Source: Siphonodentalium dalli
Taxonomy: Eukaryota > Mollusca > Scaphopoda > Gadilida > Siphonodentaliidae
Direction of reading: 5' to 3'
Length of the DNA: 64,000 bases
NCBI GenBank assembly: GCA_032622095.1
Contig: CP136062.1
Coordinates: 142,494,351-142,558,350, forward strand
In this document: positions 856 through 60,170 of the stretch, piece after piece
How the letters are laid out: every line of letters begins with the position of its first letter
Numbering within the stretch: position 1 is the stretch's first letter
The notes under the pieces: generated by a model
Seen by the model: only the letters and a program-made list of their open reading frames with translations
What the model was told of the DNA's origin: nothing
Database searches by the model: none
Position numbers and translations under genes: made by a program

Positions 856-3222
856 TCAAGGTCTGAGTCTAGATCGAACGAGCATATCTCTCAAACTGGG
901 ATTTTTCTTGTAGGCAATAATAACCCGTTTGTCGAGAGGCTCGGTCAATTTAGTGTTTAATAATGCAAAGTTTTTTCTGAAAATGTTTGCGATTTCAACA
1001 TTTCTACGATTGTAGATCAGAGGAAAGCACAAGAAATTTCGAGAAACACCTTTGTAGTCAATGTTAAGTCCGAACGGAAGATATGTTTTAAGTACGCCCA
1101 TCCAATGATTTTCGCGTTCTAGGCGTATTGAATCGGTTTGGTCTTCGTCGGCTAGAATTGGTGTCTGTTCTATTGGCTGAAAGCTGAAATGGGATTTAAT
1201 GTCATGATTAGATGAGTTGAAATGATCGGAAATTTGCATGTCGAGTTTTTTGCGAACACTGGAAAGATGATTAGACATTCTAACTTTGAGAGAGGTTTTT
1301 GTTTGTCCAACATATTGTATACGGCATCTTTTGCATGTGATTAAGTAAATTACATTTTTAGAATCACAATTAAGTTCGCTATGCATTTGATACGATATGC
1401 GTGTTTGTTCGCTGGTGAAAGTGTTACTAGTATTGATATATCCTATTGTATTGATGTAACATCGTTTTTTGTGACAAAATGAGGCTGAACCATTACCCAA
1501 CACCGGCCGGTTGTGCCGTATCCTTGTTGGTTCAGTCGATGTTGGGTCATGGCGTGACGAGTTCAATTCTCTGAGAGTTTCGGACTTTACTTGGCGCAGT
1601 AATCTACTAGAGTAGCCGCGCGGTCGTAAAGCCTGGAAAAGCACTGAACAAGCTTGATTTAGGTCGCTTCTGTTCGTGCAGTTCCGGTGATATCGAATGA
1701 TTTGAGATTTAATCAATCCATTGAAAAGTTTTGGCGGATGGAAAGATTTACGATGAAGTAGCTGGTGAGAATCCGTTGGTTTCGTAAAAAGTTTTGTATC
1801 TAAAATGTTGCATGATGTAAATTGTGGGCCCTTAAATATTGTTAAATCAAGGAAATCAATGCTGGTTTGCGATATTGATTCTTTGAGTGTGATTGATTCG
1901 TCATGACTGTTCAAGATGTCCAAGAACACCCTAAACTCATCCAGACCATGAGTCCAAATGATAAATATGTCGTCCAAGAATCTATAATAGGCTAATGGTT
2001 GTTTATCAGATTTGGCCAGGGCGCCTTTCTCCCACTCTGCAACAAAAATTGAGGCAAAATTAGGACTAAACTTCTTGCCCATACTGCAGCCGGAGACCTG
2101 TAAATAATATCGTCCATTAAATTCAAAGTCATTCCCTTTAAGAGAAAGTTCTAATAATTGAAGTAGTTCATCTCCAGGTCTATGAGGATCATGGTGGAAA
2201 TCAAATGCATTCTTAATTGACTTTAATCCGTCATCGATTCCAATATTTGTATACATAGATTCCACGTCGAGACTAATTAGGTAAGCAGAAGATGGAACTT
2301 CAATTTTCGACAATTTAATGAGGAAGTCCTCCGTGTCTTTTAGATAGCTCGGATGGCGGGTAGCAATTGGTTTCAAATAGAAATCAATAAACTCCGAAAT
2401 GTGGTACGACTCCGAAGCCACGTCGCTGATGATGGGGCGACCGGGTGGTGTGTATGGATTAGTCCAACAGCTCAAAGGTTTGTGTATTTTAGGTAGCAAA
2501 TAAAATGTCCTATTATTGGATTCAGGTTTTGCAATTAGATACTGAACATGTTTTTTCTTTAAAACGTCCTGGTCCAGCAAGCTTTTGAGAATGAGATTGA
2601 ATTTTAAAACATTGGATTTCCAAATTGGCTCATCCAATGGTTTGTAATATTTAGTGTTGCTTAATTGGCGCGTCGCTTCTAGAATGTAATTTTCTTTAGA
2701 CATGATGACGAGCGAGCTGCCTTTGTCACAAGGTTTGATTACAATGTTTTTATTGCTGCGAAGAGTTTTTAGTGCAGTTCTTTCAACTTTAGTGAGGTTA
2801 TCCTCGTTGTGAAATTTTGGTAAATTTGTGATGTCGGTTTTGACTAAGCCAGCGACCTCGGGAATGGAGTGGTCAATCTGGCGATCAGAGGGGGTCCATA
2901 TCGAAGGTTCTTTAAATTGATCTTTTAAACCTGTCGAATTGCGAAAGAAATCAGCCATAGCTGTTACTTCCCTAAATTGCATGCTTGCTGGACCGCCGTT
3001 CATTTCCATGGCATACATAGAGTCTGGTAAAACCAATGTTCCATCCTCCGTCTCAACAACATGTGGTGTTTCTTTGAGATCGGGTGGGGTAGGAACAAAG
3101 GTTAGACCATACCTAAGTATTGATTTCTCACCAGCGCTCAGGGAAAGGTCGGGTACAAGATTGACTATCTCGGTGCCGAGACCGACTCTTTCCGCATGGC
3201 TGATGCCCTTCTGAGGAATTAG
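856..3222 (-). CDS. PLE ORF2: reverse transcriptase with C-terminal GIY-YIG nuclease, unit 1
   Basis: This would copy the element RNA and nick the target. The protein has a PLE-type RT: an LPKIHKP block, SLDVESMYTNI, SGCSMGKKFSP and the active-site block YYRFLDDIF. Downstream come a C-x4-C motif (FCHKKRC) and a GIY-YIG domain (VIYLITC...YVGQT, with R and N/H further on). RT before GIY-YIG is the canonical order, not the permuted Naiad/Chlamys order. The frame is open from 3222 with no ATG until 3018. The stretch before that ATG encodes a GLTFVPTP-type motif that is conserved at PLE N-termini, so the first ATG is probably not the true entry. I therefore give the -1 frame entry point as the start. 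The stop is TGA at 858-856. Confidence 0.85.
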   Translation of the reverse strand, partial: LIPQKGISHAERVGLGTEIVNLVPDLSLSAGEKSILRYGLTFVPTPPDLKETPHVVETEDGTLVLPDSMYAMEMNGGPASMQFREVTAMADFFRNSTGLKDQFKEPSIWTPSDRQIDHSIPEVAGLVKTDITNLPKFHNEDNLTKVERTALKTLRSNKNIVIKPCDKGSSLVIMSKENYILEATRQLSNTKYYKPLDEPIWKSNVLKFNLILKSLLDQDVLKKKHVQYLIAKPESNNRTFYLLPKIHKPLSCWTNPYTPPGRPIISDVASESYHISEFIDFYLKPIATRHPSYLKDTEDFLIKLSKIEVPSSAYLISLDVESMYTNIGIDDGLKSIKNAFDFHHDPHRPGDELLQLLELSLKGNDFEFNGRYYLQVSGCSMGKKFSPNFASIFVAEWEKGALAKSDKQPLAYYRFLDDIFIIWTHGLDEFRVFLDILNSHDESITLKESISQTSIDFLDLTIFKGPQFTSCNILDTKLFTKPTDSHQLLHRKSFHPPKLFNGLIKSQIIRYHRNCTNRSDLNQACSVLFQALRPRGYSSRLLRQVKSETLRELNSSRHDPTSTEPTRIRHNRPVLGNGSASFCHKKRCYINTIGYINTSNTFTSEQTRISYQMHSELNCDSKNVIYLITCKRCRIQYVGQTKTSLKVRMSNHLSSVRKKLDMQISDHFNSSNHDIKSHFSFQPIEQTPILADEDQTDSIRLERENHWMGVLKTYLPFGLNIDYKGVSRNFLCFPLIYNRRNVEIANIFRKNFALLNTKLTEPLDKRVIIAYKKNPSLRDMLVRSRLRP

Positions 3223-3228
3223 TTTAAA
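3222..3228 (-). promoter_or_regulatory. Candidate -1 ribosomal frameshift site T_TTA_AAC, unit 1
   Basis: On the minus strand the heptamer TTTAAAC lies immediately before the stop TAA of the original ORF1 frame. A -1 slip makes the next codon CTA at 3222-3220, which is in phase with ORF2 (186 bases, 62 sense codons before 3036, no stop, no ATG). In this unit a one-base change upstream puts the ORF1 frame off the site; unit 2 keeps it. A small hairpin (3168-3181) lies about 40 bases downstream, which is farther than usual. Confidence 0.6.
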
Positions 3229-4669
3229 TGACCTTTAAAGATGTTGGTCCAGCCTTGGTAGATTTTCGCCGCCGTCTGTGATGTCCAGTGGATGTTGTCA
3301 TTCTCCACGTGAAAGTCGCGGGGGGGTATTGCCTTATGACCTTGAGGTTCTGTGTCTGACGAGCTTGGCTGTTAATGGCACGCAGAACATCCTGGTCCCT
3401 AGAATCTAAACTGAATGAGATATTTATTTCCTGAAAATGAAGTGTCGCATTAGGAAAAACTTTTCGGAAATTACTAACCATGTTAGTTACCCTGCTTTTA
3501 GCTGTGGTGCCTGCTGTTTTGCCTTTGTCGTTGTCTGTCTTCCAGTCCTCTCGGTTGTTGATGCCATTGTTGATGATGACGTGTCGAGGTGTCTTTTCTG
3601 GCTTCGATTTCAGTTTGTGGGCCATGTTGCAGAAATGACCTAAATTGCCACCTGGGTAAGAAGCAATACAAACATTTTTGGGAGGATCGACATCGATCCG
3701 GGACACATTAGAAGAGCCTAAAATAACAACAGGGTTTTTTATCTGTTTAGGGAAGGACCAATCCTTCTTAGGGCCAGGTTGACGAAATTTATAAAATTTG
3801 GATACCGTAGGTGATGTTGATAATACCTCGGCATACGATGGTGATGATGTTGAAATCGCTGGCGATGTCATCGAAGCAATGGAACCAACAGGCGAAGGAG
3901 GGCTGGAAGAGATGTGCTTTGGTGGTGTTGTTTTCTTGGCTGGTGAATTTTGAAGTGATGTATTTGGTGGAGTGGATATGCGTGACGTCCGTGGTTTTGG
4001 TGCAGGTCTCTGTGGCTGTGGTGTGGCTTTGACGCGTTTTGGTGTGGATCTCACAGACGACGACGTTGTCTGATCCCTGGCTGGACTATCCTGAAATTGA
4101 AGCTGGCGAGCGATTAGTGGGGGAGGGGAGGGTGACCGACCACGTTTGTTTGTATGAGTTTGGACGCCAACTCGTGTACCTATCGAGGACTGAAGATTAC
4201 CACAGATGCTCAAGAACTTTGATTTTGTCTCATTAGTTAATTTGGTGCCAAAATTCTTCAGTCCCCATTTTAATGCCGTGTCACGTGCTCGGTCGAAGTC
4301 AAGGGTTTTAGAAGAAAGAGCCGAAAGAACCTTGACTTCAATTTCTGATTCGGTTTTCCGATAATAATTTACCAAAGTTTTCATGGAGTTTAAACCCCAC
4401 TGAAAAGCGTCCGCTTTAAGCGAATTGAAGACATCGTCACAGGGGAGCACTGGTCGGAATGTCTTCTTTCGCCCTGACTCAACGATGGCCGAAAAGCCTT
4501 TCGGAAGGACCTTCTTCTCCAAACGGTCCTGTAAAAAATTAATATGGTGCCAAAGTTGTAGAATTTTGTATAGCAACTTTACTAGATTTGAATGGTCTAA
4601 ATAAGCCTGGTCTTTTTGCCGCTCTGGGCGGTTAGTTTTTCCACGTTTAGGTTGGTTTGGTTGAGTCAT
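3224..4669 (-). CDS. PLE ORF1: SGNH-hydrolase-like protein with altered C-terminus, unit 1
   Basis: 481 codons from ATG 4669-4667. Compared with unit 2, one base is missing near 3328, so the last ~40 residues are read in another frame and the DxxH block is lost. Residue 368 is also Asn instead of Ile, next to the G-I-N-N block. The N-terminal ~165 residues are helix-rich and basic, and residues ~175-305 are a Ser/Pro/Thr-rich linker. This copy therefore probably lacks esterase function, and ribosomes would not reach the heptamer in the phase needed for ORF2. Confidence 0.8.
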   Translation of the reverse strand: MTQPNQPKRGKTNRPERQKDQAYLDHSNLVKLLYKILQLWHHINFLQDRLEKKVLPKGFSAIVESGRKKTFRPVLPCDDVFNSLKADAFQWGLNSMKTLVNYYRKTESEIEVKVLSALSSKTLDFDRARDTALKWGLKNFGTKLTNETKSKFLSICGNLQSSIGTRVGVQTHTNKRGRSPSPPPLIARQLQFQDSPARDQTTSSSVRSTPKRVKATPQPQRPAPKPRTSRISTPPNTSLQNSPAKKTTPPKHISSSPPSPVGSIASMTSPAISTSSPSYAEVLSTSPTVSKFYKFRQPGPKKDWSFPKQIKNPVVILGSSNVSRIDVDPPKNVCIASYPGGNLGHFCNMAHKLKSKPEKTPRHVIINNGINNREDWKTDNDKGKTAGTTAKSRVTNMVSNFRKVFPNATLHFQEINISFSLDSRDQDVLRAINSQARQTQNLKVIRQYPPATFTWRMTTSTGHHRRRRKSTKAGPTSLKVI

Positions 4670-5467
4670 TTTGATCCAGGACTTGAATTTTGGCTGTGAA
4701 TAAAGGTAATGATTAGTAACATATAATACACAAAGAACGGAACGCGAAGATATAAAATAAAAAAGTACTTAGGAGCGCACTGTCAAGTTGCCTCAACGTT
4801 TCGGTAGAATTACCTTCTTCAGGAAGCAAGCTAGGTTCGAATGTTGAGGTTTTTCCATGGATCTTATATACCCGTGTGAGATAAGCTCCCATTGTGCTCC
4901 AGGGTTTCGAGAGACGTGTCAACAGCTATGTTCCTGTTTAAAACAAACAGTGAAACAATGCATACAAAATGTTTGGCGCCGTCACGACGCCCGTGTTTAT
5001 TTAAGATCGCGCGTTCTTAATGGGTTGTGTAATGGCTTCCGGAAGCCCCTAATCCAAATCCTAGTGACAGTACGCAATTAGACAGTAATACATATGTGTT
5101 AAGTAAATAGAAATAAAAGATATCCCTGGCACAGGCGATATATATATTTTGAAAGTGTGGAGAGCGCGGGCACAGGTCGGAATCCGATTTCTTATGTAAT
5201 TATTTCTATGGAACTAGCTAAATTTTGTTAGGTTGTGTCGGAAATTGACATAAATTTTGTTAGGTTGTGTCAGAAATTGACATAAATTTTGTTAGGTTGT
5301 GTCGGAAATTGACATTGAATAATTTGTTGAGCATTGTTGCCATTCAAAGATGGAACTAGCTAAATTTGTTTGGGTTGTGTCGGAAATTGACATAAAATAT
5401 TGTGTTGAGCACAAACTAAGGATAATGGTGTTGACATAAGCTAAAAGCTAATTGAACTGCGTGTTAA
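4670..5467 (-). other. PLE inter-ORF non-coding region, unit 2
   Basis: Copy of 58-855, with the 32-bp repeats at 5220-5395 and the hammerhead-like fold at 4788-4829. Confidence 0.7.
4788..4829 (-). ncRNA. Hammerhead-ribozyme-like motif, unit 2
   Basis: Identical to the fold at 176-217. The predicted cut between 4795 and 4794 (minus) lies 125 bases ahead of the ORF1 ATG at 4669, so cleavage of a tandem transcript would release a unit-length RNA carrying ORF1 and ORF2. Confidence 0.5.
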
Positions 5468-7834
5468 TCAAGGTCTGAGTCTAGATCGAACGAGCATATC
5501 TCTCAAACTGGGATTTTTCTTGTAGGCAATAATAACCCGTTTGTCGAGAGGCTCGGTCAATTTAGTGTTTAATAATGCAAAGTTTTTTCTGAAAATGTTT
5601 GCGATTTCAACATTTCTACGATTGTAGATCAGAGGAAAGCACAAGAAATTTCGAGAAACACCTTTGTAGTCAATGTTAAGTCCGAACGGAAGATATGTTT
5701 TAAGTACGCCCATCCAATGATTTTCGCGTTCTAGGCGTATTGAATCGGTTTGGTCTTCGTCGGCTAGAATTGGTGTCTGTTCTATTGGCTGAAAGCTGAA
5801 ATGGGATTTAATGTCATGATTAGATGAGTTGAAATGATCGGAAATTTGCATGTCGAGTTTTTTGCGAACACTGGAAAGATGATTAGACATTCTAACTTTG
5901 AGAGAGGTTTTTGTTTGTCCAACATATTGTATACGGCATCTTTTGCATGTGATTAAGTAAATTACATTTTTAGAATCACAATTAAGTTCGCTATGCATTT
6001 GATACGATATGCGTGTTTGTTCGCTGGTGAAAGTGTTACTAGTATTGATATATCCTATTGTATTGATGTAACATCGTTTTTTGTGACAAAATGAGGCTGA
6101 ACCATTACCCAACACCGGCCGGTTGTGCCGTATCCTTGTTGGTTCAGTCGATGTTGGGTCATGGCGTGACGAGTTCAATTCTCTGAGAGTTTCGGACTTT
6201 ACTTGGCGCAGTAATCTACTAGAGTAGCCGCGCGGTCGTAAAGCCTGGAAAAGCACTGAACAAGCTTGATTTAGGTCGCTTCTGTTCGTGCAGTTCCGGT
6301 GATATCGAATGATTTGAGATTTAATCAATCCATTGAAAAGTTTTGGCGGATGGAAAGATTTACGATGAAGTAGCTGGTGAGAATCCGTTGGTTTCGTAAA
6401 AAGTTTTGTATCTAAAATGTTGCATGATGTAAATTGTGGGCCCTTAAATATTGTTAAATCAAGGAAATCAATGCTGGTTTGCGATATTGATTCTTTGAGT
6501 TTGATTGATTCGTCATGACTGTTCAAGATGTCCAAGAACACCCTAAACTCATCCAGACCATGAGTCCAAATGATAAATATGTCGTCCAAGAATCTATAAT
6601 AGGCTAATGGTTGTTTATCAGATTTGGCCAGGGCGCCTTTCTCCCACTCTGCAACAAAAATTGAGGCAAAATTAGGACTAAACTTCTTGCCCATACTGCA
6701 GCCGGAGACCTGTAAATAATATCGTCCATTAAATTCAAAGTCATTCCCTTTAAGAGAAAGTTCTAATAATTGAAGTAGTTCATCTCCAGGTCTATGAGGA
6801 TCATGGTGGAAATCAAATGCATTCTTAATTGACTTTAATCCGGCATCGATTCCAATATTTGTATACATAGATTCCACGTCGAGACTAATTAGGTAAGCAG
6901 AAGATGGAACTTCAATTTTCGACAATTTAATGAGGAAGTCCTCCGTGTCTTTTAGATAGCTCGGATGGCGGGTAGCAATTGGTTTCAAATAGAAATCAAT
7001 AAACTCCGAAATGTGGTACGACTCCGAAGCCACGTCGCTGATGATGGGGCGACCGGGTGGTGTGTATGGATTAGTCCAACAGCTCAAAGGTTTGTGTATT
7101 TTAGGTAGCAAATAAAATGTCCTATTATTGGATTCAGGTTTTGCAATTAGATACTGAACATGTTTTTTCTTTAAAACGTCCTGGTCCAGCAAGCTTTTGA
7201 GAATGAGATTGAATTTTAAAACATTGGATTTCCAAATTGGCTCATCCAATGGTTTGTAATATTTAGTGTTGCTTAATTGGCGCGTCGCTTCTAGAATGTA
7301 ATTTTCTTTAGACATGATGACGAGCGAGCTGCCTTTGTCACAAGGTTTGATTACAATGTTTTTATTGCTGCGAAGAGTTTTTAGTGCAGTTCTTTCAACT
7401 TTAGTGAGGTTATCCTCGTTGTGAAATTTTGGTAAATTTGTGATGTCGGTTTTGACTAAGCCAGCGACCTCGGGAATGGAGTGGTCAATCTGGCGATCAG
7501 AGGGGGTCCATATCGAAGGTTCTTTAAATTGATCTTTTAAACCTGTCGAATTGCGAAAGAAATCAGCCATAGCTGTTACTTCCCTAAATTGCATGCTTGC
7601 TGGACCGCCGTTCATTTCCATGGCATACATAGAGTCTGGTAAAACCAATGTTCCATCCTCCGTCTCAACAACATGTGGTGTTTCTTTGAGATCGGGTGGG
7701 GTAGGAACAAAGGTTAGACCATACCTAAGTATTGATTTCTCACCAGCGCTCAGGGAAAGGTCGGGTACAAGATTGACTATCTCGGTGCCGAGACCGACTC
7801 TTTCCGCATGGCTGATGCCCTTCTGAGGAATTAG
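5468..7834 (-). CDS. PLE ORF2: reverse transcriptase with C-terminal GIY-YIG nuclease, unit 2
   Basis: Same architecture as the ORF2 of unit 1: PLE RT with YYRFLDDIF, then C-x4-C, then GIY-YIG with YVGQT. I see two residue differences, Ala for the second Asp in GIDDGL and Lys for Thr in ESITLKE. The frame is open from 7834, directly at the frameshift heptamer, and the first ATG is at 7630. Since ORF1 here is intact up to the heptamer, unit 2 is the better candidate for an active copy. Confidence 0.85.
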   Translation of the reverse strand, partial: LIPQKGISHAERVGLGTEIVNLVPDLSLSAGEKSILRYGLTFVPTPPDLKETPHVVETEDGTLVLPDSMYAMEMNGGPASMQFREVTAMADFFRNSTGLKDQFKEPSIWTPSDRQIDHSIPEVAGLVKTDITNLPKFHNEDNLTKVERTALKTLRSNKNIVIKPCDKGSSLVIMSKENYILEATRQLSNTKYYKPLDEPIWKSNVLKFNLILKSLLDQDVLKKKHVQYLIAKPESNNRTFYLLPKIHKPLSCWTNPYTPPGRPIISDVASESYHISEFIDFYLKPIATRHPSYLKDTEDFLIKLSKIEVPSSAYLISLDVESMYTNIGIDAGLKSIKNAFDFHHDPHRPGDELLQLLELSLKGNDFEFNGRYYLQVSGCSMGKKFSPNFASIFVAEWEKGALAKSDKQPLAYYRFLDDIFIIWTHGLDEFRVFLDILNSHDESIKLKESISQTSIDFLDLTIFKGPQFTSCNILDTKLFTKPTDSHQLLHRKSFHPPKLFNGLIKSQIIRYHRNCTNRSDLNQACSVLFQALRPRGYSSRLLRQVKSETLRELNSSRHDPTSTEPTRIRHNRPVLGNGSASFCHKKRCYINTIGYINTSNTFTSEQTRISYQMHSELNCDSKNVIYLITCKRCRIQYVGQTKTSLKVRMSNHLSSVRKKLDMQISDHFNSSNHDIKSHFSFQPIEQTPILADEDQTDSIRLERENHWMGVLKTYLPFGLNIDYKGVSRNFLCFPLIYNRRNVEIANIFRKNFALLNTKLTEPLDKRVIIAYKKNPSLRDMLVRSRLRP

Positions 7835-9282
7835 TTTAAATGACCTTTAAAGATGTTGGTCCAGCCTTGGTAGATTTTCGCCGCCGTCTGTGATGTCCAG
7901 TGGATGTTGTCATTCTCCACGTGAAAGTCGCGGGGGGGTATTGCCTGTATGACCTTGAGGTTCTGTGTCTGACGAGCTTGGCTGTTAATGGCACGCAGAA
8001 CATCCTGGTCCCTAGAATCTAAACTGAATGAGATATTTATTTCCTGAAAATGAAGTGTCGCATTAGGAAAAACTTTTCGGAAATTACTAACCATGTTAGT
8101 TACCCTGCTTTTAGCTGTGGTGCCTGCTGTTTTGCCTTTGTCGTTGTCTGTCTTCCAGTCCTCTCGGTTGTTGATGCCAATGTTGATGATGACGTGTCGA
8201 GGTGTCTTTTCTGGCTTCGATTTCAGTTTGTGGGCCATGTTGCAGAAATGACCTAAATTGCCACCTGGGTAAGAAGCAATACAAACATTTTTGGGAGGAT
8301 CGACATCGATCCGGGACACATTAGAAGAGCCTAAAATAACAACAGGGTTTTTTATCTGTTTAGGGAAGGACCAATCCTTCTTAGGGCCAGGTTGACGAAA
8401 TTTATAAAATTTGGATACCGTAGGTGATGTTGATAATACCTCGGCATACGATGGTGATGATGTTGAAATCGCTGGCGATGTCATCGAAGCAATGGAACCA
8501 ACAGGCGAAGGAGGGCTGGAAGAGATGTGCTTTGGTGGTGTTGTTTTCTTGGCTGGTGAATTTAGAAGTGATGTATTTGGTGGAGTGGATATGCGTGACG
8601 TCCGTGGTTTTGGTGCAGGTCTCTGTGGCTGTGGTGTGGCTTTGACGCGTTTTGGTGTGGATCTCACAGACGACGACGTTGTCTGATCCCTGGCTGGACT
8701 ATCCTGAAATTGAAGCTGGCGAGCGATTAGTGGGGGAGGGGAGGGTGACCGACCACGTTTGTTTGTATGAGTTTGGACGCCAACTCGTGTACCTATCGAG
8801 GACTGAAGATTACCACAGATGCTCAAGAACTTTGATTTTGTCTCATTAGTTAATTTGGTGCCAAAATTCTTCAGTCCCCATTTTAATGCCGTGTCACGTG
8901 CTCGGTCGAAGTCAAGGGTTTTAGAAGAAAGAGCCGAAAGAACCTTGACTTCAATTTCTGATTCGGTTTTCCGATAATAATTTACCAAAGTTTTCATGGA
9001 GTTTAAACCCCACTGAAAAGCGTCCGCTTTAAGCGAATTGAAGACATCGTCACAGGGGAGCACTGGTCGGAATGTCTTCTTTCGCCCTGACTCAACGATG
9101 GCCGAAAAGCCTTTCGGAAGGACCTTCTTCTCCAAACGGTCCTGTAAAAAATTAATATGGTGCCAAAGTTGTAGAATTTTGTATAGCAACTTTACTAGAT
9201 TTGAATGGTCTAAATAAGCCTGGTCTTTTTGCCGCTCTGGGCGGTTAGTTTTTCCACGTTTAGGTTGGTTTGGTTGAGTCAT
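7831..9282 (-). CDS. PLE ORF1: helical/linker protein with SGNH (GDSL) hydrolase-like domain, unit 2
   Basis: 483 codons from ATG 9282-9280. Residues 1-165 are a helix-rich basic region and ~175-305 a Ser/Pro/Thr-rich linker. Residues 318-483 resemble an SGNH hydrolase: block I G318-S-S320-N with S320 as likely nucleophile, a Gly-rich YPGGNLGHF block, block III G369-I-N371-N, and block V D458-N-I-H461. This suggests an esterase-like role of unknown substrate. SGNH domains are known in ORF1 of CR1 LINEs, in DIRS-like Ngaro elements and in giant rotifer PLEs (Terminons); here one accompanies a nuclease-bearing PLE. The Asp of the classic GDS is replaced by Ser, so catalysis is not assured. Confidence 0.8.
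   Translation of the reverse strand: MTQPNQPKRGKTNRPERQKDQAYLDHSNLVKLLYKILQLWHHINFLQDRLEKKVLPKGFSAIVESGRKKTFRPVLPCDDVFNSLKADAFQWGLNSMKTLVNYYRKTESEIEVKVLSALSSKTLDFDRARDTALKWGLKNFGTKLTNETKSKFLSICGNLQSSIGTRVGVQTHTNKRGRSPSPPPLIARQLQFQDSPARDQTTSSSVRSTPKRVKATPQPQRPAPKPRTSRISTPPNTSLLNSPAKKTTPPKHISSSPPSPVGSIASMTSPAISTSSPSYAEVLSTSPTVSKFYKFRQPGPKKDWSFPKQIKNPVVILGSSNVSRIDVDPPKNVCIASYPGGNLGHFCNMAHKLKSKPEKTPRHVIINIGINNREDWKTDNDKGKTAGTTAKSRVTNMVSNFRKVFPNATLHFQEINISFSLDSRDQDVLRAINSQARQTQNLKVIQAIPPRDFHVENDNIHWTSQTAAKIYQGWTNIFKGHLN
7834..7840 (-). promoter_or_regulatory. Candidate -1 ribosomal frameshift site T_TTA_AAC, unit 2
   Basis: ORF1 ends CAT TTA AAC TAA on the minus strand, so the slip codons are the last two sense codons. 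Slipping back one base continues CTA ATT CCT in the ORF2 frame. U_UUA_AAC is the heptamer used by coronaviruses and some other programmed frameshifts. No stop or ATG intervenes before ORF2's conserved region. Confidence 0.65.
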
Positions 9283-9968
9283 TTTGATCCAGGACTTGAA
9301 TTTTGGCTGTGAATAAAGGTAATGATTAGTAACATATAATACACAAAGAACGGAACGCGAAGATATAAAATAAAAAAGTACTTAGGAGCGCACTGTCAAG
9401 TTGCCTCAACGTTTCGGTAGAATTACCTTCTTCAGGAAGCAAGCTAGGTTCGAATGTTGAGGTTTTTCCATGGATCTTATATACCCGTGTGAGATAAGCT
9501 CCCATTGTGCTCCAGGGTTTCGAGAGACGTGTCAACAGCTATGTTCCTGTTTAAAACAAACAGTGAAACAATGCATACAAAATGTTTGGCGCCGTCACGA
9601 CGCCCGTGTTTATTTAAGATCGCGCGTTCTTAATGGGTTGTGTAATGGCTTCCGGAAGCCCCTAATCCAAATCCTAGTGACAGTACGCAATTAGACAGTA
9701 ATACATATGTGTTAAGTAAATAGAAATAAAAGATATCCCTGGCACAGGCGATATATATATTTTGAAAGTGTGGAGAGCGCGGGCACAGGTCGGAATCCGA
9801 TTTCTTATGTAATTATTTCTATGGAACTAGCTAAATTTTGTTAGGTTGTGTCGGAAATTGACATAAATTTTGTTAGGTTGTGTCAGAAATTGACATAAAT
9901 TTTGTTAGGTTGTGTCGGAAATTGACATTGAATAATTTGTTGAGCATTGTTGCCATTCAAAGATGGAA
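9226..9968 (-). mobile_element. Truncated PLE copy at the array's right edge
   Basis: Matches bases 1-743 of the array, then gives way to AT repeats at 9969. It carries the ORF1 start of unit 2, a hammerhead-like fold and the 32-bp repeats. Because the element reads leftward, this copy lacks its 5' part, as expected of a leading pseudo-LTR. Confidence 0.85.
9401..9442 (-). ncRNA. Hammerhead-ribozyme-like motif, partial copy
   Basis: Third identical copy of the fold at 176-217, with the predicted cut between 9408 and 9407. Confidence 0.5.
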
Positions 9969-9981
9969 ATATATATATATA

Positions 9982-10734
9982 CTAGAAGGTGACCCGACTT
10001 CGTCCGGGCTATTCAAAAACCAAATTTCAAGTCGATTGCTCCACCCGTTTCCTAGATCTGGTCTGCGCATGCGCGAAGCTGGTGTCGCGCGTGCTCGGCG
10101 ACCCGATAAAATTCGTATCCGGGGCAAGATACATTCACATACCAAATTTCAAGTCGATAGCTACACCCGTTTCCGAGATATATAGCCCAATGTCATTTGC
10201 GGATACCTCGGCCGGTGATGAGTTAACGCGACACAGTCAAATGCATCGGCAGGGTGAGAGTTAACGTAATCTAACTTTATGACCTCTGACGACGTCATAG
10301 AAATTACGCATTGATTTTATCCCGATAAAAGCATTGTACCACTTGTACCTAATAATTGAGGCAGATAACTAAAACGGATACATACATATTATATATCGTT
10401 GGAAAGATGAAGCCACACAGATTCTAACCGTGCAAATTATATGACTGGCAATTTATTATTCGCGCTATATCGAATCGATTTGTGAGCACCGAACTGAAAT
10501 ATATTAGCGCAAAAACGGCGTAAAAATAGATTTGACCTCCGCACGTGAAAAGTTGACCTCGCACGGACAAATAAATATGCCTATGTTCGTCTCCGGCCGA
10601 AAACACATCCAAATACCAAATTTCATCGGAATTGGCTTAGTCGTTTTGGAGTCCATCGATTTCAAACACACAAACAAACACATTTCAAACACACAAACAA
10701 ACACACACACAGATCTTTCAAAATATATAATAGA
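9982..10734 (-). mobile_element. Non-autonomous Helitron, family 1 (minus)
   Basis: Read on the minus strand it begins A|TCTATTATATATTTTG at 10734. It ends with a short hairpin built on CCCGGACGAAGTCGGG, then TCACCTT and CTAG|T at 9982. TC...CTRR termini inserted between A and T are diagnostic of Helitrons. A block near 10170-10310 is shared with the copy at 19580-20365. No Rep/helicase coding is present. Confidence 0.8.
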
Positions 10735-21280: not shown

Positions 21281-21488
21281 GTAACATCCACCCTCGAATA
21301 TGCAGCGGAAGTTTGGGATCCATACCAGCAAAAAGACATCAACGCCATAGAAAGAATCAACAAAAGAGGGGTGCGATTCGTCCAAAACAACTACCACACA
21401 AGAACAAAAGGAGCCGTAACTGAAATGTTAATGGGACAACTTATGGAGCCACTACACCAAAGAAGAAACACGACGAGAATGAAGCTCT
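21281..21488 (+). pseudogene. LINE C-terminal coding fragment
   Basis: The open frame reads TSTLEYAAEVWDP...INAIERINKRGVRFV...VTEMLMGQLMEPLHQRRN. This matches the conserved post-RT region of jockey/CR1-like LINEs (LEYA..VWDP...LE..Q.RA.RF...LGW..L..RR). The frame ends at the start of the 26-bp minisatellite. Confidence 0.75.
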
Positions 21489-22370
21489 GTTCGGCAGGGT
21501 AGTGGGTGGGCTGGTGTCGGCAGAGTAGTGGGTGGGCTGGTGTCGGCAGAGTAGTGGGTGGGCTGGTGTCGGCAGAGTAGTGGGTGGGCTGGTGTCGGCA
21601 GAGTAGTGGGTGGGCTGGTGTCGGCAGAGTAGTGGGTGGGCGGTGTCGACAGAGTAGTGGGTGGGCTGGTGTCGGCATAGTAGTGGGTGGGCTGGTGTCG
21701 GCAGAGTAGTGGGTAGGCTGGTGTCGGCAGAGTAGTGGGTGGGCTGGTGTCGGCAGAGTAGTGGGTGGGCTGGTGTCGGCAGAGTAGTGGGTGGGCTGGT
21801 GTCGTCAGAGTAGTGGGTGGCCTGGTGTTGGCAGAGTAGTGGGTGGGCTGGTGTCGGCAGAGTAGTGGGTGGGCTGGTGTCGGCAGAGTAGTGGGTGGGC
21901 TGGTGTCGGCAGAGTAGTGGGTGGGCTGGTGTCTGCAGAGTAGTTGGTGGACTGGTGTCGGCAGAGTAGTGGGTGGTGGGCTGGTGTCGGCAGAGTAGTT
22001 GGTGGGCTGGTGTCGGCAGAGTAGTGGGTGGGCTGGTGTCGGCAGAGTAGTGGGTGGGCTGGTGTCGACAGAGTAGTGGGTCGGCTGGTGTCGGCAGAGT
22101 AGTGGGTGGGCTGGTGTCGGCAGAGTAGTGGGTGGGCTGGTGTCGGCAGAGTAGAGGGTGGGCTGGTGTCGGCAGAGTAGTGGGTGGGCTGGTGTCGGCA
22201 GAGTAGTGGGTGGGCTGGTGTCGGCAGAGTAGTGGGTGGGCTGTTGTCGGCAGAGTAGTGGGTGGGCTGGTGTCGGCAGAGTTGTGGGTGGGCTGGTGTC
22301 GGCGGAGTAGTGGGTGGGCTGGTGTCGACAGAGTAGTGGGTGGGCTGGTGTCGGCAGAGTAGTGGGTGGG
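21489..22370. repeat. 26-bp minisatellite (~34 copies)
   Basis: The unit GTAGTGGGTGGGCTGGTGTC plus GGCAGA repeats with sporadic single-base changes and two or three short length changes. Because 26 is not a multiple of 3, long artefactual open frames appear in three frames of the minus strand; none is taken as a gene. Confidence 0.95.
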
Positions 22371-25300
22371 CCATTTTTTTCGACTGCCCCACATGTATTG
22401 GCAGCCAAATTAACATATACTCAAATATTTGAAGATATCTCCAAATATTTGAAGATATCTCCAAATATTTGGAGATATCTCTAATCATTTGAAGATATCT
22501 TTAAATATTTAGAGATATCTCTAAATCGATTTGGAGAGCTCTTCAAATGATACCTTAATTATTTAAGGACATCAATCCATTTGAAGATATCTCTAAATAT
22601 TTAGAGATATCTGCAATTATTTGGAGATATTTCTAAATATTTGGAGATATCTCCAAATATTTGAAGATATCTCCAATATCTTCAAATCATTTAGAGATAT
22701 CCACAAAAGTATTTAAGGAGAAATAAATTTGATTTGTGGTACTTATCCATAAATGAATTAGAGATATCTTCAATTCATTTAGAGATATCTCCAATTTATT
22801 TAGAGATATCTCTAAATGATTTGGAGATATCTCTAGTTGTCCTTCTTGATTGGGGATAAGTACTCATATGAGGAGAAGTGCAAACCATTTAGAGATATCT
22901 CTAAATATTTGGAGATATCTCCAAATATTTATAGATATCTCCAAATATTTAGATATATCTCCAATTAATTGGAGATATCTTCAAATGAATTAGAGATAAT
23001 TATGTTTAAATATTTGGAGTTATCTCTAAATATTTGGAGATATCTCTAAATATTTCGATATAGCCTATAGATATTCCTAATTTATTTGAAGTCAATTAAG
23101 ATCTGACATATCCTCAAATAGGCTCATTGTGTGAAATTTATTTCAACATGCAATGATGCCTCCCTACATGCATGCGCAGACGTGCTATCGAAAACTGCCT
23201 AAAACAGCTAAATTTTCCAAAGTTCAGTTATTAAGAAGACTATTTGACATTTGGCTGGTGTCGGCAGAGTAGTGGGTGGGCCATTGTTTTCGACTGCCCC
23301 ACATGTATTGGCAGCCAAATTAACATATACTCAAATATTTGAAGATATCTCCAAATATTTGGAGATATCTCTAATCATTTGAAGATATCTTTAAATATTT
23401 AGAGATATCTCTAAATCGATTTGGAGAGCTCTTCAAATGATACCTTAATTATTTAAGGACATCAATCCATTTGAAGATATCTCTAAATATTTAGAGATAT
23501 CTGCAATTATTTGGAGATATTTCTAAATATTTGGAGATATCTCCAAATATTTGAAGATATCTCCAATATCTTAAAATCATTTAGAGATATCCACAAAAGT
23601 ATTTAAGGAGAAATAAATTTGATTTGTGGTACTTATCCATAAATGAATTAGAGATATCTTCAATTCATTTAGAGATATCTCCAATTTATTTAGAGATATC
23701 TCTAAATGATTTGGAGATATCTCTAGTTGTCCTTCTTGATTGGGGATAAGTACTCATATGAGAAGAAGTGCAAACCATTTAGAGATATCTCTAAATATTT
23801 GGAGATATCTCCAAATATTTATAGATATCTCCAAATATTTAGATATATCTCCAATTAATTGGAGATATCTTCAAATGAATTAGAGATAATTATGTTTAAA
23901 TATTTGGAGTTATCTCTAAATATTTGGAGATATCTCTAAATATTTCGATATAGCCTATAGATATTCCTAATTTATTTGAAGTCAATTAAGATCTGACATA
24001 TCCTCAAATAGGCTCATTGTGTGAAATTTATTTCAACATGCAATGATGCCTCCCTACATGCATGCGCAGACGTGCTATCGAAAACTGCCTAAAACAGCTA
24101 ACTTTTCCAAAGTTCAGTTATTAAGAAGACTATTTGACATTTGGCTGGTGTCGGCAGAGTAGTGGGTGTGCCATTTTTTTCGACTGCCCCACATGTATTG
24201 GCAGCCAAATTAACATATACTCAAATATTTGAAGATATCTCCAAATATTTGGAGATATCTCTAATCATTTGAAGATATCTTTAAATATTTAGAGATATCT
24301 CTAAATCGATTTGGAGAGCTCTTCAAATGATACCTTAATTATTTAAGGACATCAATCCATTTGAAGATATCTCTAAATATTTAGAGATATCTGCAATTAT
24401 TTGGAGATATTTCTAAATATTTGGAGATATCTCCAAATATTTGAAGATATCTCCAATATCTTCAAATCATTTAGAGATATCCACAAAAGTATTTAAGGAG
24501 AAATAAATTTGATTTGTGGTACTTATCCATAAATGAATTAGAGATATCTTCAATTCATTTAGAGATATCTCCAATTTATTTAGAGATATCTCTAAATGAT
24601 TTGGAGATATCTCTAGTTGTCCTTCTTGATTGGGGATAAGTACTCATATGAGGAGAAGTGCAAACCATTTAGAGATATCTCTAAATATTTGGAGATATCT
24701 CCAAATATTTATAGATATCTCCAAATATTTAGATATATCTCCAATTAATTGGAGATATCTTCAAATGAATTAGAGATAATTATGTTTAAATATTTGGAGT
24801 TATCTCTAAATATTTGGAGATATCTCTAAATATTTCGATATAGCCTATAGATATTCCTAATTTATTTGAAGTCAATTAAGATCTGACATATCCTCAAATA
24901 GGCTCCTTGTGTGAAATTTATTTCAACATGCAATGATGCCTCCCTACATGCATGCGCAGACGTGCTATCGAAAACTGCCTAAAACAGCTAAATTTTCCAA
25001 AGTTCAGTTATTAAGAAGACTATTTGACATTTGGCTGGTGTCGGCAGAGTAGTGGGTGGGCCATTGTTTTCGACTGCCCCACATGTATTGGCAGCCAAAT
25101 TAACATATACTCAAATATTTGAAGATATCTCCAAATATTTGGAGATATCTCTAATCATTTGAAGATATCTTTAAATATTTAGAGATATCTCTAAATCGAT
25201 TTGGAGAGCTCTTCAAATGATACCTTAATTATTTAAGGACATCAATCCATTTGAAGATATCTCTAAATATTTAGAGATATCTGCAATTATTTGGAGATAT

Positions 25301-25920
25301 TTCTAAATATTTGGAGATATCTCCAAATATTTGAAGATATCTCCAATATCTTAAAATCATTTAGAGATATCCACAAAAGTATTTAAGGAGAAATAAATTT
25401 GATTTGTGGTACTTATCCATAAATGAATTAGAGATATCTTCAATTCATTTAGAGATATCTCCAATTTATTTAGAGATATCTCTAAATGATTTGGAGATAT
25501 CTCTAGTTGTCCTTCTTGATTGGGGATAAGTACTCATATGAGAAGAAGTGCAAACCATTTAGAGATATCTCTAAATATTTGGAGATATCTCCAAATATTT
25601 ATAGATATCTCCAAATATTTAGATATATCTCCAATTAATTGGAGATATCTTCAAATGAATTAGAGATAATTATGTTTAAATATTTGGAGTTATCTCTAAA
25701 TATTTGGAGATATCTCTAAATATTTCGATATAGCCTATAGATATTCCTAATTTATTTGAAGTCAATTAAGATCTGACATATCCTCAAATAGGCTCCTTGT
25801 GTGAAATTTATTTCAACATGCAATGATGCCTCCCTACATGCATGCGCAGACGTGCTATCGAAAACTGCCTAAAACAGCTAACTTTTCCAAAGTTCAGTTA
25901 TTAAGAAGACTATTTGACAT
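22343..25920. repeat. 890-bp satellite, four tandem units in A-B-A'-B' order
   Basis: Units start at about 22343, 23251, 24141 and 25031 and the last ends at 25920. Units 2-4 are each 890 bp; the first carries an extra 20-bp repeat. Each begins with one copy of the 26-bp minisatellite motif, then CGACTGCCCCACATGTA and long stretches of GAGATATCTC/AAATATTT palindromes. Units 1 and 3 share one set of variants and units 2 and 4 another. Confidence 0.9.
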
Positions 25921-36575: not shown

Positions 36576-37287
36576 TCAGTCAACACTGAGACCGAATAAC
36601 GAATAAGTAAACCAAACTTAGGTATATAACGGTAGCACAATACCGTACATATTGAAATTACATAAACTCTCTAAAACTGAGGAAAGAGTGCAATCTACTA
36701 ATTAACGAATCAATGTATAATTGTCAAGCAAGGTGACATTGATTAAATCAACATTGCCCAAGTTAATGTAAAAATGTTATAATTTGTCCCTTTACGTTTT
36801 CTAATTGATAAGCATATGAATTTGCTTTAGGTTAGAGAGTTTGATCTTCGGAAGGTCAATGTCATTTTGGTCGTGTATACTTTGAATAAAGTTTAAAAAT
36901 CAATTAAAGGACATCTATAGCAAGGCCATAATATAATTTAACCTGCCCCAGCTAGATAACATAGTGCATACATGTCATAATAGTATGAATATGTCATGTA
37001 ATTTGTTGCAGTGTTGACATAATCGTCTTATGACAATCCTTCATTGCTTCAGGAAGTTCAACTTAACTTCAAGCTTCACTAATTCATTGAATCATTTCGT
37101 TCCTGAAATTGATACACTAACATCTCAGATTAGATCATTCATTCACTGTTGATGGTATCACCATGTTCCAAATCTAATCTCGTATTCGATATAAACTGCC
37201 TCTGATGATCAATCGTGATTGTCACAGTTGTCAGTGTTGATACAATTTACCCAAAGAACTTTACTGTGTTGTACTGTACAATCCAGA
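36576..37287. other. Upstream region and 5' UTR of the PDP gene
   Basis: No open frame of note. TTGTTGCAG near 37004-37012 could be a splice acceptor for a 5' UTR exon. No core promoter element can be named with confidence. Confidence 0.4.
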
Positions 37288-38844
37288 ATGAGGTGTGTGT
37301 TGTCTCAGAGTCGAAGATCTTTTCTGCAATTCTTGAATATTCATGATGCTGTTTTCTCCAGGCGCGGATTTGCTGCCTTCAGGTCTGTTCCCGTTGCTGC
37401 TGACCATGTTGATCTCCAATTTATTTGGGGGAAACGAGGCACAGTAATGCGTGAATTTGTGCGTCCATTGATGAAAGAAGCAATTGAATTTCCTAGGCTG
37501 ACTCCTCAACAGGTTTCATCTCTAATACGTATGGCAGAAGATTCTGTGACCGTGGATACAGATGAGGGACCGATCAAGTATTTTGACAGAAACCAAGTAA
37601 ATTCAAATTCACCTATAGAAGATAGACGAGCTGAGGCCATGATAAAGGAAACAAACCAATATCTTTTTGGAGTATTTGATGGCCATGCAGGATGCGCATG
37701 TGCTCAAGCTGTTAGCGAGCGTCTATATCACTACATAGCTCTCTCTTTGGCATCAGATGAAGTTCTTGAGAAAGTGACAAATAAAAAAATTAATTTGTTT
37801 TCTGACTTGCTAAATTGGTATAAACATGAACATGACTATTCACATACAGACCTTAATTCACAGTTGTATAAAAGCCTAATGAATCTTGCAGAAGAAAACT
37901 TTGATTTCTATGATGCAGATTCAACTATAGGTGATAATCTAAAGACTGCATTCCTTCGACTGGACCAGGACATTTCGAAGGATGCACTAGCAACAGTCAC
38001 AGGCTCAAAAGACAGTCCAGAGTCTATAGAGGTTGCCTTTTCTGGAGCTTGCGCATGTGTGGGCTTGGTCAATAATTTGGATTTGTATATTGCAAATGTT
38101 GGTGACAGCCGGGCTGTATTAGGTGTTTCTGCAACCGATTCTGATTCTGACCAGTACGATGCAGTGGAACTTTCTACAGAACATAATTCAGAGAACAAAA
38201 ATGAAGTAAAACGACTTTTGCAATCCCATCCAAATGAATCGTACAATGTAATTCAAAATAATCGACTGCTAGGTGACCTAGCTCCTTTCAGAGCATATGG
38301 GGATGTCCGGTATAAATGGAGTGCCAGTAATCTCACTAATGCTTTGAGTTATATTAGATCTGAACCACAGGTTTCATTTGTGAATATCTACAGCGAAATA
38401 GTACCTAAAAATTATCGCACCCCTCCATATCTAATCGCAGAGCCAGAAATCATCAAACACCACTTGACTCCTAGGGATAAATTTCTAGTTATTGCAACTG
38501 ATGGCTTATGGGACATGTTGTCTCCGGAAAAAGTAGTGAATTTGGTTGGAGCTCATATGGAGGGTAAACAAGTACTTGGTCATTTTCATCAGACTGACAC
38601 AAGAATGTCATTGAAAGACATGAACAGAATCCTTGGAAGCAGGAAAACTGGACTGAAAAACAAGCCCATTGATGAAAATGCTGCCACTCATCTCATAAGG
38701 CATGCATTGGGAGCTGACCATGGTCAAGTTTCGGCAATGTTGTCACTCCCAAGTGATGTAGTTCGTTTCTACAGAGACGATATAACTGTATTGGTTATCT
38801 ATTTTAACACAGATTATATTGTTAACTCATTTAGTATGCACTAG
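37288..38844 (+). CDS. Pyruvate dehydrogenase [acetyl-transferring] phosphatase, mitochondrial (PDP1/2-like)
   Basis: A PP2C-family phosphatase that would dephosphorylate and reactivate the pyruvate dehydrogenase E1-alpha subunit in the mitochondrial matrix. The single exon encodes 518 residues, close to vertebrate PDPs. The first in-frame ATG is at 37288; codons before it lack ATG. The N-terminus is rich in Arg, Ser and Phe without acidic residues for ~18 positions, as in a mitochondrial presequence. PP2C metal-site motifs are present: D131-G-H-A-G, VGD273SRA, ATD405GLWD and R-D497-D498-I-T. The PDP-type segments LAPFRAYGDVRYKW and PPYLIAEPEI are also present. Frame intact, stop TAG. PDP1 versus PDP2 cannot be decided. 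Confidence 0.95.
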   Translation: MRCVLSQSRRSFLQFLNIHDAVFSRRGFAAFRSVPVAADHVDLQFIWGKRGTVMREFVRPLMKEAIEFPRLTPQQVSSLIRMAEDSVTVDTDEGPIKYFDRNQVNSNSPIEDRRAEAMIKETNQYLFGVFDGHAGCACAQAVSERLYHYIALSLASDEVLEKVTNKKINLFSDLLNWYKHEHDYSHTDLNSQLYKSLMNLAEENFDFYDADSTIGDNLKTAFLRLDQDISKDALATVTGSKDSPESIEVAFSGACACVGLVNNLDLYIANVGDSRAVLGVSATDSDSDQYDAVELSTEHNSENKNEVKRLLQSHPNESYNVIQNNRLLGDLAPFRAYGDVRYKWSASNLTNALSYIRSEPQVSFVNIYSEIVPKNYRTPPYLIAEPEIIKHHLTPRDKFLVIATDGLWDMLSPEKVVNLVGAHMEGKQVLGHFHQTDTRMSLKDMNRILGSRKTGLKNKPIDENAATHLIRHALGADHGQVSAMLSLPSDVVRFYRDDITVLVIYFNTDYIVNSFSMH

Positions 38845-59321: not shown

Positions 59322-60170
59322 TCACTTCCGTTGTGGGTTGTACACGTCACTTCCGGCGTTTAGTTTCGACCGGAAACGTTGTTTAAAGAGATCTTCTTGT
59401 GCTAGTCTAGCCATAATATTGTCTGTTTTCATTTTGTAGAATGGGAATATCCTGAAGTTGCCATTGTTGCATTCTTCCAAATGCCCACTTAGTGGTATCT
59501 GTCGATATTCCTTATGATTTATTTGTTGCCGATGGATGGTCACCCTTTCACGTACAGTGTTTCCTGTTTGGCCTACGTATCCTTCGCCGCATCCATCGCA
59601 AGTTATGTAGTATATTAGATTTTTTGATTTACAGTCCAAGTCAGTATTTGGGAATATTTCCATTTTGTTTTTTAATGGTAATTTTTTCCCCGGAAACACG
59701 TGACGGCATGCTTTACATCGTTTGTCACCACAGCGTTTTACTTGGTATTCAGTTTTGTTTTCTGTGATGAAGCGTGCCTTTGTCAGGATTCGTTTTAAGT
59801 TACTTGGTTGGCGCTTACTATCTATAATTTCGTCCCTATTCACCAGCGATCGCATTTTGTCACTCTTTTCTAGGATAGGAAAAAAGGTCCTTTGCACATC
59901 GCGCGATGTTGTTGTGGCGAGGATTGTGTGTGGTTACAAATGGTATAGATATTTTTGTTATTTTGTTTTAACTTTTCGGCGCGAAGTTCTTCTAATGTGG
60001 TGTTCCGCGCTCTATCTATCCCATTCATTATTAATTGTTCTGGATAATGTTGTTGTTTCAAGAATACGTAGAGTTCTTCCAATCTTTTATCTCGTAATGT
60101 TGGTTGGTTCGACAAAAATGGTTCCAACCAAACTCAGAATTGCAGGTTCCAACGATGTTTATTATCTGTG
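59322..60170 (-). pseudogene. 5'-truncated Penelope-like element, different lineage from the array
   Basis: 59,897-59,322 (minus) encodes a C-x4-C-x2-C motif (CGDKRCKAC) followed by a GIY-YIG domain (LIYYITC...YVGQT...R...H). Just upstream in another frame (60,127-59,870) is the RT-to-nuclease linker (LFLKQQHYPEQLI-like), so the frame is shifted between them. The RT itself is absent. The sequence differs strongly from the array PLE. A free-standing GIY-YIG host gene is possible but less likely. Confidence 0.7.

Follow-up and report, generated by a model that had tools for sequence, protein, structure and literature searches.

The 64,000-nucleotide (nt) stretch of the Siphonodentalium dalli genome analyzed here (the window) carries two open reading frames (ORFs) on its minus strand between positions 9282 and 5468, ORF1 followed by ORF2, which, judged by the domains they encode, form a Neptune-type Penelope-like retrotransposon (PLE). 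The two frames meet at a heptamer of the kind on which ribosomes slip, and the central features of the element are as follows.

7831–9282, minus strand: ORF1, 483 residues, with a predicted helical N-terminal part, a low-confidence linker and a C-terminal SGNH/GDSL-type domain
7843–8343, minus strand: SGNH esterase-like domain of ORF1, approximately residues 314–480, with the blocks GSSN, PGG, NIGINN and DNIHW assigned by eye
7834–7840, minus strand: slippery heptamer TTTAAAC, in ORF1 phase T_TTA_AAC
7831–7833, minus strand: ORF1 stop codon TAA, directly 3' of the heptamer
5468–7846, minus strand: ORF2 in the -1 frame, with reverse transcriptase (RT), Cys-rich segment and GIY-YIG endonuclease (EN); open from 7846, with 788 codons after the heptamer
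7631–7834, minus strand: 5' part of ORF2 without an ATG, 68 codons, encoding the motifs GLGTEIVNL and GLTFVPTP common to relatives
6515–6925, minus strand: RT domain match (Pfam RVT_1)
5936–6088, minus strand: Cys-rich segment between RT and EN
5705–5968, minus strand: GIY-YIG endonuclease domain match (Pfam)

As expected of a PLE, ORF2 joins an RT (RVT_1, E 7.1e-7, 29.6 bits, at the cut-off) and a GIY-YIG endonuclease (E 1.9e-8) in one protein. Relatives of this protein at E values of 0.001 or below numbered 1097 among 7997 scored candidates, and P0001 together with the best 120 of the 1097 formed a set of 121 ORF2 proteins for closer comparison. Aligning 30 of the 121 showed five invariant cysteines in the segment between RT and EN (C583, C588, C619, C630 and C633 in P0001 numbering). 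The assignment to Neptune rests on this segment, since a Cys-rich domain in that position is given as the mark of Neptune-like PLEs in the accessible part of PMC3846280, from which the class definition is taken.

The ORF1 protein could be assigned through its C-terminal domain. Alone, it matched Pfam Lipase_GDSL_2 at an E of 0.012, below the cut-off, while a four-sequence ORF1 profile matched the esterase of the zebrafish ZfL2-1 ORF1 protein (PDB 4c1b) over approximately 90 residues with an E of 1.9e-7. An AlphaFold2 model of ORF1 built from four sequences is of low overall confidence (mean predicted local distance difference test score, pLDDT, of 53.7); residues 310–480 mostly exceed 70 and resemble SGNH hydrolases (best Foldseek E 8.1e-6). 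As the SGNH domain ends just before the heptamer, ORF1 looks complete. No Pfam match of ORF1 to retroviral Gag was found at E values up to 1, and esterase ORFs are already known in PLEs from the accessible portions of PMC3905857 and PMC5408684.

At the end of ORF1 the minus strand reads CAT TTA AAC TAA, placing the heptamer at 7840–7834 and the stop codon at 7833–7831 exactly as an original prediction, made from the letters alone, had claimed; the junction has an X_XXY_YYZ signal that lies in phase with ORF1. The 62 sense codons (186 nt) that the same prediction had counted beyond the slip site run from CTA at 7834 to TTG at 7648, the start of ORF2 as listed, and its statement that they lack an ATG held over an even longer run of 68 codons. 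A stop at 7849–7847 leaves the -1 frame just two open codons upstream of the heptamer, so that any slip must fall within about four codons. The bare string TTTAAAC occurs 32 times in the window against a mean of 21.5 in shuffled sequence (standard deviation 5.1; at least 32 in 3 of 100 shuffles), and another in-phase instance lies within ORF1 at 9007–9001. We predict, with comparison to relatives as the strongest support, that programmed -1 ribosomal frameshifting very probably yields the RT-endonuclease as a minor fusion of ORF1 with ORF2.

The beginning of ORF2 bears directly on this prediction. No ATG of the second ORF stands at the stop of the first and none is in frame within the first 68 ORF2 codons, with the first in-frame ATG being codon 69, at 7630. 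The motifs encoded in this stretch recur as GLGTNIVNL and GLNFVPTP in P0002 (51% identical), and the GL-x-F-x-PTP motif noticed originally is thus both present, as GLTFVPTP, and conserved in protein relatives.

Related junctions were sought at the DNA level by one scan of genome contigs, which returned seven loci (L001–L007). From their PLE content we infer that all seven are eukaryotic sequence filed under bacterial records, and L001, filed under an Epulopiscium single-cell record, is probably sequence of the fish host; the viral contigs, plasmids and phages searched contained no DNA relatives. L001 is a distant element (37% identical) with an SGNH-type ORF1 of 612 codons that ends TAT TTA AAC TTC AAA GCC CCT TAA, where the heptamer lies in the same phase as in the window and is the sole in-phase slippery heptamer among the 612 codons. 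The ORF2 frame of L001, 765 codons long, is open from 21 codons before TTT and has its first Met at residue 392, inside the RT, and a tandem copy within L001 has the same slip site. At L005 a heptamer scan alone found one heptamer on the minus strand, and no junction was recognized in L006 or L007.

Protein relatives offer a second view of the site, with the qualification that database ORF2 calls begin at whatever start codon was found. The GLxFxP motif lies near the N-terminus in 95 of the 121 ORF2 proteins, and in 28 of those 95, with the window's own protein excluded, the sequence extends 14 or more residues beyond the VNL anchor toward the N-terminus. In 17 of these 28 a tripeptide xKL stands 12–25 residues before the anchor (FKL in 12, KKL in 4 and GKL in 1; an extra PKL nearer the anchor in P0107 was not counted), and at 60% identity the 17 proteins collapse into 12 clusters, with F in 10, K in 1 and G in 1. 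As background, F, K, G and P together precede KL in 105 of 597 cases (17.6%) beyond residue 110 of the same protein set. Phenylalanine, lysine and glycine are chemically unlike but are encoded by TTT, AAA and GGG, so that the constraint looks to be one of nucleotides, X_XXA_AAC, and the pattern looks like the trace of such a heptamer, TTT, AAA or GGG followed by AAA and C. The residue after xKL can be encoded by an A- or G-initial codon in 16 of the 17 proteins (P0038 being the exception), as a stop codon following the heptamer needs; since most residues can be so encoded, this fit is weak support. P0122 (27% identical), the sole relative found for the ORF1 protein, ends in LNLN, consistent with TTA AAC before its stop, and a protein search with the N-terminus of P0041 returned three proteins, all previously found. 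It is here that a spliced intron, removing the ORF1 stop and so joining ORF1 to ORF2, becomes very unlikely as an explanation: PMC3846280 describes a PLE copy whose ORF contains an intron, but splicing would leave both the in-phase heptamer of L001 and the F/K/G-K-L pattern unexplained.

The element is repeated within the window and across the genome, and the following features belong to its tandem arrangement.

856–3228, minus strand: ORF2 of a tandem copy, protein 99.7% identical
3222–3228, minus strand: heptamer TTTAAAC of the tandem copy, where a one-base difference 106 nt upstream shifts the ORF1 frame
4670–5467, minus strand: repeated non-coding segment between the tandem copies, resembling a pseudo-long-terminal-repeat (pLTR), with 32-bp repeats
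9283–9990, minus strand: pLTR-like segment on the 5' side of ORF1, a repeat of most of 4670–5467; its 5' limit is approximate and set by eye

Head-to-tail repeats spaced 4612 and 4613 bp give the tandem or partly tandem arrangement with pLTRs that characterizes PLEs, and junction matches at approximately 4.6-kb spacing also occur elsewhere in the genome. The shifted ORF1 frame listed for the tandem copy (3224–4669) was considered as the ancestral one and rejected, as its C-terminus lacks the SGNH end block, which is common to the main copy (DNIHW), P0122, L001 (DHLHW) and L002. In the whole genome (2.23 Gb in nine contigs), a 301-nt junction query gave 275 candidates, of which 40 were scored; all 40, on eight of the nine contigs, are given as 100% identical, eight of them at a slightly lower score. 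Thirty of the 40, the window's own copy included and all picked by a matching junction, were examined: the heptamer and stop are present in all 30, the ORF1 frame is open for at least 511 codons upstream in 25 (481 are needed), and ORF2 is open to the end of the locus in 29. This is a young family that has recently been mobile with the TTTAAAC-TAA junction. These copies also speak to the possibility that the element once had a single frame, recently split by the loss of one base beside a coincidental heptamer, which we consider the most improbable of the explanations entertained. One-base frame changes do happen, as at 3224–4669, and several in-phase heptamers lie within the ORF1 of the element; against such decay, the 30 near-identical copies keep stop and heptamer with both ORFs mostly open otherwise, evidence that is limited by their choice through a junction match, and the distant L001 has the same design.

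Signals for -1 frameshifting combine a spacer of approximately 5–9 nt with a stimulatory structure, and a candidate structure is predicted downstream of the window's heptamer.

7739–7827, minus strand: predicted RNA structure starting 6 nt after the heptamer (-33.7 kcal/mol for a 104-nt fold, z-score -2.25)

Only 6 of 200 shuffles folded as well as this segment, whose first pair lies 6 nt downstream of the heptamer, and in L001 a 45-nt fold that likewise begins 6 nt after the heptamer reaches -22.4 kcal/mol (z-score -2.22; 5 of 200 shuffles as good). When folds with a 6-nt spacer were ranked among all equally long segments of their element, the 80-nt fold of the window element fell in the lowest 0.13% and the 35-nt fold of L001 in the lowest 0.05%, five lengths and eight spacers having been tried without correction; the same comparison placed the 35–60-nt folds of the former at 5–24% and the 80–100-nt folds of the latter at 3–7%. 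L001 additionally contains a candidate H-type pseudoknot by a crude score that none of 100 mononucleotide shuffles equaled. The structure prediction that had been suggested originally for the sequence after the slip site thus yielded a stem at the same 6-nt spacing in both elements, but one whose unusual stability is confined to some fold lengths.

Taken together, the conserved motifs without an ATG, the heptamer of L001 and the F/K/G-K-L pattern support the programmed -1 frameshifting originally proposed, which we prefer; none of the rivals accounts for both the in-phase heptamer common to the two elements and the x-K-L pattern. Under such a mechanism most ribosomes would stop at TAA and release the 483-residue ORF1 protein, whereas some would slip at U_UUA_AAC, with the Leu and Asn tRNAs re-pairing with UUU AAA, and would continue on CUA AUU CCU into a 1271-residue ORF1-RT-EN fusion with the junction HLN-LIPQ; the RNA structure 6 nt downstream may slow the ribosome. 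Readthrough of the ORF1 stop was considered separately and rejected, as it would keep the ORF1 frame and not reach that of ORF2.

A number of observations weigh against frameshifting and are best considered together. ORF1 contains five in-phase X_XXY_YYZ heptamers, four besides the slip site, and when the ORF1 codons are resampled, 1.7% of draws have one of this kind within the overlap of four codons; the corresponding figure for the 26-codon overlap of L001 is 7.2%. At the DNA level the heptamer is seen in two distinct elements only, that of the window and L001. The protein pattern F/K/G-K-L leaves the codons unfixed, and 11 of the 28 informative proteins lack xKL: six of these (P0004, P0040, P0049, P0051, P0057 and P0077) begin 15–20 residues ahead of the anchor, perhaps short of the site, and P0082 appears to start just after it, yet P0008, P0030, P0053 and P0079 reach far enough and are still without it. 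The ORF1 frame is interrupted in 5 of the 30 genomic copies. The comparison of copies that the original prediction had looked to found heptamer and stop throughout, but in copies too young to be decisive and picked by the junction, whose conservation in them tells nothing about selection. Among 27 near-identical copies, the window's included, the distinct variants comprise 7 synonymous and 16 non-synonymous changes in ORF1, with 10 synonymous and 13 non-synonymous ones in the part belonging to ORF2, and this variation is too shallow for selection to be discerned. The folds, finally, are ordinary at 74 nt (z-score -0.17) and 49 nt (-0.65) in the window and at 75 nt (-0.58) and 105 nt (-0.96) in L001, and a crude score found no simple H-type pseudoknot in the window. 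Each of the two heptamers, in the window and in L001, is no more than suggestive alone, and it is the recurrence in relatives that makes the heptamer more than chance.

How widely frameshifting applies is constrained by three loci more distant from the window element (32–35% identical). L002 reads GAT TTA TGT TAG, with an ATG overlapping the stop of its SGNH-type ORF1; in L004 an overlapping ATGA links ORF2 to a 442-residue ORF upstream, in which no SGNH motif was recognized by eye; and L003 lacks a separate ORF1, its one continuous ORF having approximately 208 residues ahead of the VNL motif. The overlaps of ORF2 ATG and ORF1 stop lie at 1069–1100 of L002 and 1664–1667 of L004, and L002 has TTTATG in place of TTTAAA, as if a slip site had turned into a start codon. 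L003 (1271–3499) is a PLE from a Bathymodiolus symbiont assembly whose N-terminal extension is in frame with the RT and derives, at a guess, from an ORF1; among 83 genomes from the same order as that of L003, a search matched the L003 genome alone, and L041, from the genome of L004, is the same element as L004. Of the two relatives whose ORF1 is SGNH-type and whose junction is readable, L001 thus has the heptamer and L002 does not, and conservation of the site extends to the DNA of L001 and 17 of 28 proteins and not to L002, L003 or L004. Relatives with an ATG-started ORF2 or without the heptamer, which the original prediction had named as evidence that would refute it, consequently do occur in part (an ATG in L002 and L004, a continuous ORF in L003); as the more distant elements, they limit generality and do not refute frameshifting in the window element. 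The overlaps in L002 and L004 look built for termination-reinitiation, so the group can use it, and in the window ORF2 might by this route or by leaky internal initiation be translated from the ATG at 7630 or from a non-AUG codon near the ORF1 stop. We regard this as unlikely, though less so than splicing or decay: no ORF2-frame ATG lies near the stop, a start at 7630 would lose the conserved GLGTEIVNL and GLTFVPTP, and the first Met of the L001 frame falls inside the RT. For the group as a whole, we lean with moderate confidence toward a -1 slip from a gag-like esterase ORF1 into the RT frame at X_XXA_AAC (U_UUA_AAC, A_AAA_AAC or G_GGA_AAC) as the ancestral condition in Neptune-type PLEs across animals, with repeated switches to an ATG/stop overlap (L002, L004) and to a continuous ORF (L003).

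Other features of the window lie outside this argument. Rfam gave no match at gathering scores over the whole window, and in the 5' segment one weak match only, far below the gathering score of its family, with no hammerhead match; by eye, a hammerhead-core-like string CTGAAGA ... GAAAC is present in the pLTR at 9435–9411 (minus strand), with no stem I seen by eye. A separate GIY-YIG fragment with a Cys-rich segment (59322–59897, minus strand; Pfam 6.5e-7) is 30–39% identical to PLE ORF2 C-termini and has no RT matched beside it. An ORF at 62447–63952 (plus strand) encodes a YqaJ-like recombinase domain (3.1e-19) and is possibly part of another mobile element, and the 541-residue ORF at 37219–38844 (plus strand), with a PP2C phosphatase domain (9.5e-38), is probably a host gene, intronless in that stretch. 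On the minus strand, TTTAAAC occurs four times at exact 890-bp spacing within 23004–25680 (at 23004, 23894, 24784 and 25674), suggesting an 890-bp tandem repeat, and long low-complexity ORFs in overlapping frames at 21441–22488 are built of the short repeat PTHYSADTSP.

A literature search, mostly of titles and the starts of abstracts, found no report of frameshifting in PLEs, and an earlier report is possible. If the mechanism operates, it would set the ratio of ORF1 protein to RT as it does for gag-pol in retroviruses, and the RT would gain an N-terminal ORF1 fusion; it would also explain how a conserved N-terminus can go missing from RT annotations that take the first ATG as the start, which is relevant to expressing PLE RTs. 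Should the ancestral condition be as we suggest, gag-pol-style dosage control would extend to this third retroelement class. Because the junctions of these related RTs range from slip site through start/stop overlap to one continuous frame, they allow tests of how the coupling of ORFs evolves.

Frameshifting at -1 and the heptamer TTTAAAC are well known from viruses, where the ORF1a/1b signal of coronaviruses uses UUUAAAC. The junction of the window element resembles that signal in heptamer, phase, short spacer and a second ORF without its own start; it differs in belonging to a retrotransposon rather than a virus and in having the ORF1 stop directly 3' of the heptamer, and no pseudoknot was found in the window, with the crude-score candidate confined to L001. 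In the gag-pol arrangement of retroviruses and LTR retrotransposons, an upstream first protein and a downstream RT are coupled by -1 slippage. The window element shares this ORF order and, as predicted here, the -1 coupling, whereas its ORF1 encodes a helical and SGNH-esterase-like protein without a Gag match and its RT protein carries GIY-YIG, with no protease or integrase matched in Pfam. Among PLEs, the canonical elements have RT and EN within a single ORF, as stated in the accessible text of PMC11167929. The Neptune-type PLEs with an esterase ORF are like the window element in RT, Cys-rich segment, GIY-YIG and tandem pLTRs; PMC5408684, in its accessible sections, mentions esterases of Neptune-like PLEs for fish and mollusks and does not describe coupling by a frameshift. 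The closest parallel to ORF1 itself is the ORF1 protein of the long interspersed element (LINE) ZfL2-1 (PDB 4c1b), which likewise places an SGNH esterase behind an N-terminal helical part, although in a non-LTR element with another RT.

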